A DNA stretch of 64,000 bases from an uncultured Monoglobus sp. (GTDB lineage: Bacteria > Bacillota > Clostridia > Monoglobales > Monoglobaceae): positions 1-64,000 of the forward strand of contig CANRBF010000011.1 in the NCBI GenBank assembly GCA_947628795.1, read 5' to 3'. The position numbers and the translations under genes are program-made. The notes beneath the pieces are model-generated. The model saw nothing but the letters and a program-made list of their open reading frames with translations, made no database searches and was not told where the DNA came from. Positions 30,963 through 60,357 of this stretch are shown in pieces. Numbering within the stretch: the first letter of the stretch is position 1; each line of letters opens with the position of its first letter.

Positions 30963-32513
30963 TCATAAACTTATTTCGGCGGGTTCGGCCAGGGGTTTCA
31001 TGCTGTCCGTGTCGCTCCACAGCATTACTTTTATGTCCGCATTTTGCAAATTCTCGCTAAAAAACATTACATCGCCGGTATTATAATAATTCTGCATTTC
31101 AATAAGCGCGCCGTTTTTGTTATACACCGCCAAGATCACCTGCGCGTCAAAATTATCGCAATTATTGACCTTTGCAGTAACAATATAATCAAAAACCCCG
31201 GTTATCTCAACCGAAGGCGCGTTCGGGTCGGCCGTCGGCTTTGCCGTAGGCGCTGCCGTCGGCCTTTGAGTTGGCGTCGGCGTCGGTTTTGGCGTCGGAG
31301 TGGGCTTTGCTGTTGGCGTGGGTGTAGGTGTTGCTGTCGGCTTGGGAGTCGGAGTGAAATTGCTTTCCGGCCATCCCCACGCGTTATTGTAAAAACGACA
31401 GTTGTTAATGTTAAACTTAATATTGTCGCTTCCGAAAACAGTGTTTAAATTGTCTTGAAATGTACAATTGTTTAAGTTTATTTCAATATTATTTCGCCAA
31501 CCGCCTGAAAAAGCTTTATATTCGGAGGCATATCCTTTATCATACGCGTTTCTGAGAAAGGCGCAATTTTCAAATGTTGCTCCATCATGAATCAAAGCGA
31601 TACATGCCATGCAATCTCGTATAACGGTATTGCTGATTAAAGTGTTTTTACTATGATCCGTCCATAATCCGAACACGCCGCAGCCGTATATATCACAATT
31701 ATTTATTTTGACGCTCGCGCTTGAAAAGATATTGATTACTCCGTTGCCTTCACAGCCGAATTGCGGAACATCATGTCCCAATATAAGACCGTCAATCAAA
31801 ATGTTTCGCGAGTTGTATATATTTATAACTGCCAAATAACCCTTATCAACCTTTATTTCGGCTTTTCCGTTTCCGTAGACTTCCAAATTTTTGATATTCC
31901 TTATATCTACTTCATCTGTGATCAGGTATTCGCCCGGAGCCATTATAATTTTTGTGTTTGAATCAATGGCGTTGAGCAGTTCTTCGACTGTGGATACATT
32001 AACCGTTTTAAGCGGAACCGGCGTCGCGGAGCTTTCGGAATCGTTAAAATGTTTTTCGGCTTTTATCAATGAATCGTTGTTTGAACCAAAAGTTATTCCG
32101 CGCCAGTCGTTTTTACTACCGTTGTAATATACATCGATCGGAGTGTAGCAATCACCAAAAGCGCCTTCTCCAACAAAAGTCAGCTTATTTGACATCGTTA
32201 TGTTCGCGAGGCATTCGCAGCCATAAAATGCGTTAGTTCCTATATTTGTCACATCATCTTTAATTATTACGTTTTTAATTCCATATCTATATTCTTCATT
32301 GAACCATGCCGGACGATTGATCCACGTATAATCCCGCATCTCTCCCGTGCCGCTTATCGTCAGCGTACCTTCGTTGTCAAGCGTCCATTTTACATTATCT
32401 CCCTGCGCGCCGCAGTCGCCGCTTGCGATTATTGTCGCGGCGGTTGCGGGCGTGAATGTCAGCAGGGCGCAAAGGATTGTTAATACCAAACTTAAGCATA
32501 AAACTCTTTTCAT
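30963..32513 (-). CDS. Secreted BspA-type leucine-rich / right-handed beta-helix protein with Pro-Thr linker
   Basis: A 516-residue exported protein. It has a signal peptide (1-25, cleavage after ATAA); a BspA-like LRR segment (about 27-150) with SGDCGAQGDNVKWTLDNEG, GTLTISGTGEM and IGTNAFYGCECLANI; a right-handed beta-helix (about 170-385) with repeated INN/IDG/ISNT rungs such as NILIDGLILG and VKINNCDIYGCG; a PTPTPTAKPTPTPKPT linker (about 388-425); and a C-terminal module (about 430-516) ending IKVMLWSDTDSMKPLAEP, which matches the end of the M23/ricin/dockerin protein. Beta-helices of this sort bind or cleave polysaccharides, but no lyase signature is evident. The start has GGGAGGT upstream and lies only 17 nt after an intrinsic terminator, so expression needs read-through of the leader RNA at 32530-32722. 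Confidence 0.82.
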   Translation of the reverse strand: MKRVLCLSLVLTILCALLTFTPATAATIIASGDCGAQGDNVKWTLDNEGTLTISGTGEMRDYTWINRPAWFNEEYRYGIKNVIIKDDVTNIGTNAFYGCECLANITMSNKLTFVGEGAFGDCYTPIDVYYNGSKNDWRGITFGSNNDSLIKAEKHFNDSESSATPVPLKTVNVSTVEELLNAIDSNTKIIMAPGEYLITDEVDIRNIKNLEVYGNGKAEIKVDKGYLAVINIYNSRNILIDGLILGHDVPQFGCEGNGVINIFSSASVKINNCDIYGCGVFGLWTDHSKNTLISNTVIRDCMACIALIHDGATFENCAFLRNAYDKGYASEYKAFSGGWRNNIEINLNNCTFQDNLNTVFGSDNIKFNINNCRFYNNAWGWPESNFTPTPKPTATPTPTPTAKPTPTPKPTPTPTQRPTAAPTAKPTADPNAPSVEITGVFDYIVTAKVNNCDNFDAQVILAVYNKNGALIEMQNYYNTGDVMFFSENLQNADIKVMLWSDTDSMKPLAEPAEISL

Positions 32514-32529
32514 AAAAATGTACCTCCCG

Positions 32530-32567
32530 AAAATAAAAAGTGTGTGGTCTCAATCTAAACCACACAC
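32530..32567 (-). terminator. Intrinsic terminator ending leader RNA A
   Basis: An 8-bp stem GTGTGTGG / CCACACAC (32560-32567 with 32540-32547) followed on the minus strand by TTTTTATTTT. It precedes the start codon of the downstream gene by 17 nt, leaving no room for another promoter after it. Confidence 0.85.
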
Positions 32568-32722
32568 GAAAAATGCACGGCTCGGATTGTTACCACACAA
32601 TTTTAAACCTACTAGTAAAACCTCAACAGAAATAAGCTAATAGAATGAGCGCGCATTTTTGCCGAAAAAGCAAAATACGCCTATTTCTTATTGTGGTATA
32701 TTAAGTTTAAAATTATGTGGTG
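32530..32722 (-). ncRNA. Structured leader RNA, copy A (unidentified family; riboswitch-like)
   Basis: About 192 nt on the minus strand, beginning just after a promoter and ending in an intrinsic terminator. Helices (plus coordinates): closing stem 32703-32721 with 32592-32609; middle stem 32681-32693 with 32624-32636; apical hairpin 32670-32680 with 32651-32662. Blocks nearly identical to copy B at 59081-59270 are the apical GGCAAAAATGC..GCTC, the segment AACAATC.GAGC...GCATTTTTCGTGTG, and the terminator position. AAAAATGC-NN-GCTC can pair with GAGC-NNN-GCATTTTT, and AACAATC can pair with GATTG in the terminator loop. The stems differ in sequence from copy B but keep pairing, which argues for selected RNA structure. 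It is followed 17 nt later by the beta-helix gene. I do not recognise the family. Confidence 0.7.
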
Positions 32723-58816: not shown

Positions 58817-59056
58817 TTATTTTAATGCGTATTTTAAGACGCGCCGACAGGTCGGACAGAGTGAAATATTTTCAAATTTTTCAAGGTCTTTTTCTTCTCC
58901 GCAGTTAGCGCAGCGCGGTACGATCCTGAAAAGCGAGACGCCTATGCCGTCAGGCAGAGGCAGCATATTCGCTTCGGAATTTGGTTTTAGATTAAATTCT
59001 TCCCTATATTTTTTGGGAATTAATATTCTTCCTATCGAATCGATCTTAACTATCAT
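58817..59056 (-). CDS. AbrB/SpoVT-type DNA-binding protein with C-terminal zinc ribbon
   Basis: A 79-residue protein. Residues 1-50 are a swapped-hairpin AbrB domain (MIVKIDSIGRILIPKKYREEF), and the C-terminus has a Cys4 zinc ribbon (CANCG ... CPTCR). Such proteins are transition-state or antitoxin-like regulators. The start codon lies 25 nt after the terminator of leader RNA B, leaving no room for a separate promoter, so its expression should depend on read-through from that RNA. TAGGATGT serves as a weak ribosome-binding site. Confidence 0.82.
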   Translation of the reverse strand: MIVKIDSIGRILIPKKYREEFNLKPNSEANMLPLPDGIGVSLFRIVPRCANCGEEKDLEKFENISLCPTCRRVLKYALK

Positions 59057-59080: not shown

Positions 59081-59119
59081 AAAATAAAAAGTGTGCAGAA
59101 CAATCAGAGTTCCGCACAC
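59081..59119 (-). terminator. Intrinsic terminator ending leader RNA B
   Basis: Stem GTGTGCGGAAC / GTTCTGCACAC (one mismatch in 11) followed by TTTTTATTTTATTT on the minus strand. Confidence 0.85.
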
Positions 59120-59270
59120 GAAAAATGCTAAGCTCCGATTGTTGCGACACAAATCCTTTTCCACTTTGAAATTTTATGCAAAGTATGTGAAAATAGAGCA
59201 TGCATTTTTGCCAAAGCAAAAACACATACTTCGCACAAACCTCAAAGTAAAATATTGAATTTATGCCGCG
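59081..59270 (-). ncRNA. Structured leader RNA, copy B (unidentified family; riboswitch-like)
   Basis: About 190 nt on the minus strand. Helices (plus coordinates): closing stem 59257-59268 with 59145-59156 (12 bp including G-U pairs); 59242-59248 with 59163-59169; 59223-59231 with 59181-59189 (9 bp); apical hairpin TTTTTGC/GCAAAAA at 59216-59222 with 59205-59211. The conserved blocks match copy A: GGCAAAAATGC..GCTC at the apex and AACAATC.GAGC...GCATTTTTCGTGTG before the terminator. AACAATC can pair with GATTGTT in the terminator hairpin. Promoter, length and terminator position agree with copy A although the stems have different sequence. It lies between the AbrB-like gene and the divergent Fic gene. 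Confidence 0.7.
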
Positions 59271-59276
59271 ATATTA

Positions 59277-59305
59277 AGTATATCACTATAGAACAATTTA
59301 GTCAA
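59277..59305 (-). promoter_or_regulatory. Promoter of leader RNA B
   Basis: On the minus strand TTGACT (59300-59305) and TATACT (59277-59282) with a 17-bp spacer. The start site is predicted at the first bases of the closing helix, as in copy A. Confidence 0.75.
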
Positions 59306-59451: not shown

Positions 59452-60357
59452 ATGAAATATATTTCCGTATCTCAAGCGGCGAAAAAATGGGGCGTGTCCG
59501 AGCGGAGCGTGCGCGGTTATTGCAGAGATGGCCGCGTGCCCGGCGCGTTTATTGCCGGAAACGCGTGGAGCATACCCGAAAACGCGCCAAAGCCGCCTCG
59601 AAAAAACGCGCGCAAAGCGAGACTAAAGACTTTGCTTGATATCTTGAAGGCCGAAAAAGCGGCAAGGCTGTCCGGCGGTATATATCACAAGCTCCAGATC
59701 GAGCTTACCTATAACTCGAATCATATAGAGGGCAGTCGTTTGACGTTTGATCAGACGCGATATATTTTTGAGACAAATACCATAGGCGCCGATGATAAGA
59801 ATCTCAATGTGGACGATATCGTCGAGACCGCAAATCATTTCAGATGTATCGACATGGTTATAGACAACGCGTCAAATAGGCTGAGTGAAAAGTTTATAAA
59901 AACTCTGCACGGCATGCTGAAAAACGGAACAGGCGATTCGAGGCTTGATTGGTTCAGCGTCGGCGGCTATAAAAAACTTCCCAACGAGGTTGGCGGAAAA
60001 GCGACAACCGAGCCCGGACGTGTTCACGATGAAGTGTCGGGATTGCTTGCGGAATACAATAATTTAAAAACTGTGACGTTTGATAATATAATCGACTTCC
60101 ACGCAAGATTTGAAAAAATACATCCGTTTCAGGACGGAAACGGCAGAGTCGGCAGATTGATAATGCTCAAAGAATGTCTTAAAAACAATATTGTTCCCTT
60201 TATAATCGACGAGAATTTCAAGCTGTATTATTATCGCGGGCTTAACGAGTGGCCCCGTGAGCGCGGATATCTTATCGACACCTGCCTTGCCGCGCAGGAT
60301 CGCTTCAAGGCATGGCTCGATTATTTCGGCATAGCGTATCAATATTTAATTATATAA
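59452..60357 (+). CDS. Fic family protein with N-terminal helix-turn-helix
   Basis: A 301-residue protein started at the ATG at 59452, which has AAAGGAGG upstream; in-frame sequence before it is promoter DNA. Residues 1-60 are a MerR/HTH_17-like DNA-binding segment (YISVSQAAKKWGVSERSVRGYCRDGRVPG). The Fic domain (about 75-295) has the active motif HPFQDGNGRVGR (from His224) intact and the internal inhibitory motif SNHIEG (about 89-94, [S/T]xxxE[G/N]), placing the inhibitor helix in the same chain, so it is self-inhibited. Fic proteins AMPylate or otherwise modify targets; with an HTH fusion it may act on DNA-associated proteins or be autoregulatory. No separate antitoxin is seen. Confidence 0.9.
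   Translation: MKYISVSQAAKKWGVSERSVRGYCRDGRVPGAFIAGNAWSIPENAPKPPRKNARKARLKTLLDILKAEKAARLSGGIYHKLQIELTYNSNHIEGSRLTFDQTRYIFETNTIGADDKNLNVDDIVETANHFRCIDMVIDNASNRLSEKFIKTLHGMLKNGTGDSRLDWFSVGGYKKLPNEVGGKATTEPGRVHDEVSGLLAEYNNLKTVTFDNIIDFHARFEKIHPFQDGNGRVGRLIMLKECLKNNIVPFIIDENFKLYYYRGLNEWPRERGYLIDTCLAAQDRFKAWLDYFGIAYQYLII

Follow-up and report, generated by a model that had tools for sequence, protein, structure and literature searches.

The 64,000-nucleotide window analysed here (positions 1 to 64,000 of contig CANRBF010000011.1 from an uncultured Monoglobus sp.) contains two copies of a structured leader RNA, both on the minus strand, with copy B lying ahead of an AbrB-family gene and copy A ahead of a gene for a secreted protein. 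We conclude that this RNA is probably a riboswitch-like attenuator that controls transcription in cis and belongs to a class for which Rfam has no model. Sequence comparison supports this reading with conserved covarying pairings, mutual exclusion between alternative folds of near-equal predicted energy, a promoter and placement before start codons. The minus strand at copy B has a minimum free energy (MFE) of -84.1 kcal/mol (z = -9.9, with 0 of 200 shuffles equalling it), and the leader itself is about 184 nucleotides (nt) long with a start site that, from the promoter spacing, would lie at the first helix (P1). The parts of both copies are as follows, R1 being the first of two covariance models described below.

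59277-59305, minus strand: sigma-70 promoter TTGACT-17-TATACT with TG ahead of the -10
59086-59269, minus strand: leader RNA copy B, from the P1 5' strand to the end of the U-run (R1 match 3.8e-31; one of five seed copies)
59257-59269, minus strand: P1 5' strand, GCGGCATAAATTC (folding and two-sided changes)
59223-59231, minus strand: P2 5' strand (helices 2-3, two-sided changes in 8/8 pairs)
59216-59222, minus strand: X', the 5' arm of the apical hairpin, TTTTTGC (folding, two-sided changes; X':X z -14.5)
59205-59211, minus strand: 3' arm of the apical hairpin (folding)
59196-59209, minus strand: X element, AAAAATGC-AT-GCTC, which partners either X' (apical hairpin) or the tail (pseudoknot)
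59181-59189, minus strand: P2 3' strand (helices 2-3 of the aligned rows)
59144-59156, minus strand: P1 3' strand, GGATTTGTGTCGC (own-versus-swapped energy and two-sided changes)
59121-59143, minus strand: switching tail, AACAATCGGAGC-TTA-GCATTTTT, which partners either X (pseudoknot) or the terminator 5' half and loop (antiterminator)
59133-59143, minus strand: AACAATCGGAG, the tail segment that partners CTCTGATTGTT in the antiterminator
59091-59119, minus strand: intrinsic terminator hairpin (folding; helix 5 of the aligned rows)
59099-59109, minus strand: CTCTGATTGTT, the antiterminator partner, overlapping the end of the terminator 5' arm, the loop and the start of the 3' arm
59086-59090, minus strand: U-run after the terminator
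58817-59056, minus strand: AbrB-family gene, 79 amino acids (aa) (TIGR01439, NCBIfam AbrB, 31.8 bits against a cut-off of 28.3)
32535-32721, minus strand: leader RNA copy A (R1 2.0e-17; not a seed sequence)
30963-32513, minus strand: gene downstream of copy A, encoding a secreted protein with LRR_5 (BspA-type LRR) and beta-helix matches

In copy B P1 (13 base pairs, bp) begins 7 nt past TATACT, P2 comprises 9 bp and both helices, together with the apical hairpin, lie within one base pair of where the original prediction from the sequence alone had placed them. That prediction also proposed a long-range pairing of 12 bp in both copies, and we find it in copy B as AAAAATGC-AT-GCTC : GAGC-TTA-GCATTTTT, with an equivalent pseudoknot in copy A, whose layout is the same. 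The proposed competition of this pairing with the apical hairpin holds on many homologues, as does the view that the RNA is modular, the genes downstream being of different kinds (AbrB-family in copy B and the secreted LRR/beta-helix protein in copy A).

In order to assemble homologues R1 was seeded with five well-aligned copies, MAFFT alone having put the tail out of register when run on the full set, and a second model, R2, was built from 117 matches. The 287 matches collected represent 252 unique leaders, of which 4 antisense matches were removed to leave 248; under our rules 23 of these could not be parsed, and the remaining 225 reduce to 135 copies at <75% identity or 184 at <85%. To be parsed a copy must have an A-run in its middle part and a T-run in its tail, a rule that favours canonical copies, an effect that falls alike on the swapped and own pairs compared below.

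The compensatory changes claimed for the helices are borne out by 105 distinct aligned rows, in which 33 of 34 nested pairs show two-sided changes and 92.4% of cells pair, the alignment having been fitted to the nested structure under examination. Within P1 all 13 pairs show such changes, with 98.0% of cells paired, and the covariation of P1, P2 and the apical helices marks out a conserved structured domain as in a riboswitch. The sequence of P1 and X is moreover kept beyond what pairing needs (GCnACAnAA/TTGTGTnGC in P1; TAAAAATGCA). The pseudoknot is absent from the model, and 92.2% of its cells are paired, a value that falls to about 75% when one side is slid by a single column; two-sided changes occur in 49 of its cells against 12.7 +/- 3.0 in shuffles. 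As a whole the predicted structure is thus supported to a degree far beyond chance.

We also used an alignment-free test in which the duplex energy of each segment with its own partner is compared with that obtained with the partners of other copies, performed on the 135 copies with 10,000 permutations. Own partners were clearly favoured for P1 (z -36.2), the apical hairpin (-14.5), the pseudoknot (-15.3), the antiterminator (-13.9) and the terminator (-28.9), with 0 of 10,000 permutations as good in each case. Five control pairings not predicted by the model gave z of only -1.2 to +1.1 on the same copies, and shared ancestry alone therefore does not produce the own-partner signal. An earlier run on 70 representatives of 114 parsed copies agreed. 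One other candidate antiterminator, the P1 3' strand with the terminator 3' half (alike in copy A), was rejected with z of -1.7 and then -1.2.

The pairing of AACAATC with GATTG(TT) in the terminator loop, also put forward by the original prediction, is present and extends to the 11 bp of AACAATCGGAG:CTCTGATTGTT; rather than a second pseudoknot, however, it forms the outer part of an antiterminator, which in copy B is completed by six inner pairs. The antiterminator and terminator of copy B have energies of -17.9 and -18.5 kcal/mol, and the means over the 135 copies are -16.2 and -16.4 kcal/mol respectively. At least 10 antiterminator pairs form with 124 of 135 own tails compared with 696 of 2700 shuffled tails. 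In folding limited to nested structures, so that pseudoknots are not modelled, 134 of 135 copies have at least 6 antiterminator pairs in the nascent MFE structure at a point where the terminator 3' half has yet to be transcribed; at full length the antiterminator is found in 73 copies and the terminator in 62. The leader thus carries both a conserved terminator and a conserved antiterminator that exclude each other, as an attenuator does. The pseudoknot and the apical hairpin are likewise mutually exclusive, and because the tail segments GGAG and GCAU serve both the apex pairing and the antiterminator the pseudoknot excludes the antiterminator as well. The suggestion that a structured RNA touching a terminator may act as a switch would gain its switching logic from this exclusion, pseudoknot and antiterminator using the same tail.

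These features suggest the following course of events. The strong sigma-70 promoter would set the transcription start on the first base of P1 or beside it, and P1, P2 and the apical hairpin would fold first, after which the tail (Y = CAAUCGGAGC and X'' = GCAUUUUU, joined by NNN) would have two candidate partners. Left alone, the tail would pair with the emerging terminator 5' half and loop, forming the antiterminator and allowing read-through into the gene (ON). Were the folded domain stabilised, the apical X and GCUC would capture the tail, the pseudoknot acting as an anti-antiterminator, and the terminator 5' half would be free for its 3' half so that transcription stops (OFF). Antitermination would then be the default, with capture of the tail by the apex giving termination. 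We infer that the choice of fold is regulated in the cell by a signal that promotes the pseudoknot; as the trigger, a small molecule or ion that binds the RNA directly seems somewhat likelier than a protein.

The position of the leaders bears on whether they act on the genes that follow. A promoter score of at least 9/12 was found in 119 of 134 representatives, with a 17 nt spacer in 120, TGn before the -10 in 129 and the -10 and P1 separated by 6 nt in 114. Among 223 non-tandem leaders that are followed by at least 250 nt of sequence, an open reading frame (ORF) with a ribosome-binding site (RBS) starts within 50 nt downstream of the U-run in 145 copies and within 30 nt in 118, most at 16-30 nt, compared with 12 of 230 on the divergent upstream side under the same rule (both sets still include the 4 antisense matches). 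In copy B the distance from the end of the U-run to the AbrB-family start codon is 29 nt. The leader therefore sits between promoter and start of gene, as an attenuator would. By a crude rule a signal-like N terminus is present in 81 of the 98 downstream proteins that reach 150 aa; among the other ORFs of the pattern-scan loci the figure is 85 of 604. The 98 are not independent, many belonging to one related group (a cluster of 66/150). LRR_5, RCC1, Peptidase M23, subtilase and CHAP are among the Pfam families matched by downstream proteins, and many small downstream products match nothing. The downstream genes may form one surface regulon.

An attenuator is not the only reading of such an arrangement. 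Small RNA genes that act in trans independently of one another, each equipped with a promoter and a terminator and situated upstream of genes by chance or through shared transcription, would also account for the finding that almost all copies have a strong promoter and a terminator of their own, but we regard this as unlikely given the contrast in start codon placement between the two sides and given an antiterminator matched to its own terminator, which a stand-alone RNA does not need. Such an RNA would also be positioned independently of neighbouring start codons, which the leaders are not, with exceptions among copies lacking an ORF. These exceptions are among several observations that weigh against a cis-acting attenuator. 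By the rules used 37 of the 184 copies have no nearby ORF, some of them retaining a short ORF or an RBS and others having the look of orphans. The antiterminator signal of these 37 equals that of the gene-linked copies, and on this ground the idea that orphans are decoys without an antiterminator was rejected. Every tandem copy (23 of 252 leaders) comes with a promoter and a terminator to itself, an arrangement that would suit separate small RNA genes as well. Two-sided change affects 6 pairs of the pseudoknot compared with 4.8 in shuffles, of which 108 of 500 score at least as high, the reason being that the A5:U5 part hardly varies. Finally, in the pseudoknot the tail at the base of a long hairpin has to reach the apex of that hairpin with a linker of only about 7 nt in copy B, so that the rod would have to bend, probably at the AAUAU-containing loop inside P1, or else partly open.

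A possibility that we take more seriously, while still considering it doubtful, is the same attenuator with a trigger other than a small molecule, either an RNA-binding protein or a second RNA such as another copy that pairs through the common X and tail motifs. The sequence of P1 and X kept beyond pairing need would suit such a trigger, and swapped-copy pseudoknots still average -12.4 kcal/mol so that pairing between copies is possible; however, own partners clearly beat strangers (z -15.3) and no candidate regulator was identified. A leader-peptide attenuator, in which ribosome stalling picks the fold, shares the general terminator and antiterminator architecture but is highly improbable and was rejected, as no conserved upstream ORF was found: an RBS, start and at least 8 codons occur in only 8 of 135 copies at scattered positions.

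Returning to the riboswitch-like attenuator, we looked at its distribution across genomes. Among 60 relatives, its own genome included, 39 have an R1 match at E<=0.01, their copy numbers ranging from 1 to 27, and in a sample of the class Clostridia, with 9 candidates scored per genome, 76 of 291 genomes have a match at E<=1e-4, which is a lower bound. In 398 genomes of the phylum, with 7 candidates scored per genome, the own genome was the sole match to R1 and R2, a search of low sensitivity in which absence outside the class is weak. An exact pattern occurs in at least 119 stretches of genome contigs and among the 80 listed titles are Clostridia, Clostridiales, Oscillospiraceae, Ruminococcaceae, Eubacterium, Ruminococcus and Monoglobus assemblies, gut and rumen being the main sources. 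R2 finds one copy, ahead of an M23 peptidase gene, in a single-contig genome of the same genus (G008) and none in genome G018. A phage or plasmid origin was rejected, as one exact pattern gave 0 matches in viral contigs and none in plasmids; a single partial match fell in a faecal phage record that is itself unverified.

It is conceivable, if a little on the doubtful side, that the leaders make up a large undescribed riboswitch class of up to about 27 members per genome with which many gut Clostridia tune secreted and surface proteins to one intracellular signal, the tail strand being common to pseudoknot and antiterminator. If this is true about a quarter of the sampled class genomes would hold unrecognised RNA control over much of the secreted proteome, and the repeated placement ahead of adhesin-like, peptidase and AbrB-family genes would point to a common signal that is directly searchable. 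The clean three-way competition and the many natural variants would also make a good test bed for co-transcriptional folding.

Against Rfam 15 (4227 families, among them c-di-GMP-I and, we take it, T-box, 6S and raiA) there were 0 matches in the window at the gathering score, and of 5 matches in 20 homologous loci none fell on the leader RNA; the best sub-threshold overlaps were chance-like (MIR8007, E 0.014; ncr1241, E 0.037, 32.2 bits against 60). Like riboswitches with transcription-terminating platforms the leader lies between promoter and gene, has exclusive terminator, antiterminator and anti-antiterminator folds and occurs in tandem, but it differs in having no Rfam match, in its copy number (18 here and up to 27 in a relative) and in preceding unrelated genes, mostly for secreted proteins. 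Cyclic di-GMP (c-di-GMP) riboswitches also occur in several copies per genome, in tandem and with surface-related genes, and c-di-GMP-I co-occurs in the own genome; the leader fold nevertheless differs and matches no cyclic-dinucleotide model. T-box leaders are likewise multi-copy and choose between terminator and antiterminator, whereas by eye the antiterminator of the leader is a plain hairpin without a conserved bulge. In the literature searched we recognised no paper describing the leader RNA; it may be an unnamed entry among the 3161 candidate structured RNAs reported in PMC8040213.

In the 2.35-Mb own genome BLAST gave six clear places and R1 gave the 18 copies at E<1e-3, most of them outside the seed. 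Two near-identical leaders lie about 0.9 kb apart on contig C6 (116934-117101 and 117864-118031; L068 1501-1668 and 2431-2598) with different sequence after their terminators, a picture that would fit duplication or conversion of leaders ahead of differing genes. Near a leader copy on contig C6 there are three c-di-GMP-I riboswitch matches in a row (72.3, 59.8 and 58.2 bits; L073 169-632, minus strand), and a skipping-rope RNA match (46.5 bits, cut-off 36.7; L078 2245-2344, plus strand, contig C13) lies upstream of another AbrB-linked leader on the opposite strand. Four downstream ORFs (L162, L165, L171 and L225) encode proteins of about 50-60 aa starting M-x-x-Y-x-x-x-Y, those of L162 and L225 matching no Pfam or NCBIfam family. 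The 79-aa AbrB-family protein of copy B has a Cys-rich C-terminal half that by eye is zinc-ribbon-like. Around it in the window, a Fic/DOC-family protein with a weak N-terminal helix-turn-helix match is encoded divergently from copy B (59452-60357, plus strand), and the segment 55265-58787 (plus strand) encodes proteins resembling 2-hydroxyglutaryl-CoA dehydratase activase, with matches to DUF2229/HGD-D and BcrAD_BadFG, and after them a TSCPD protein.
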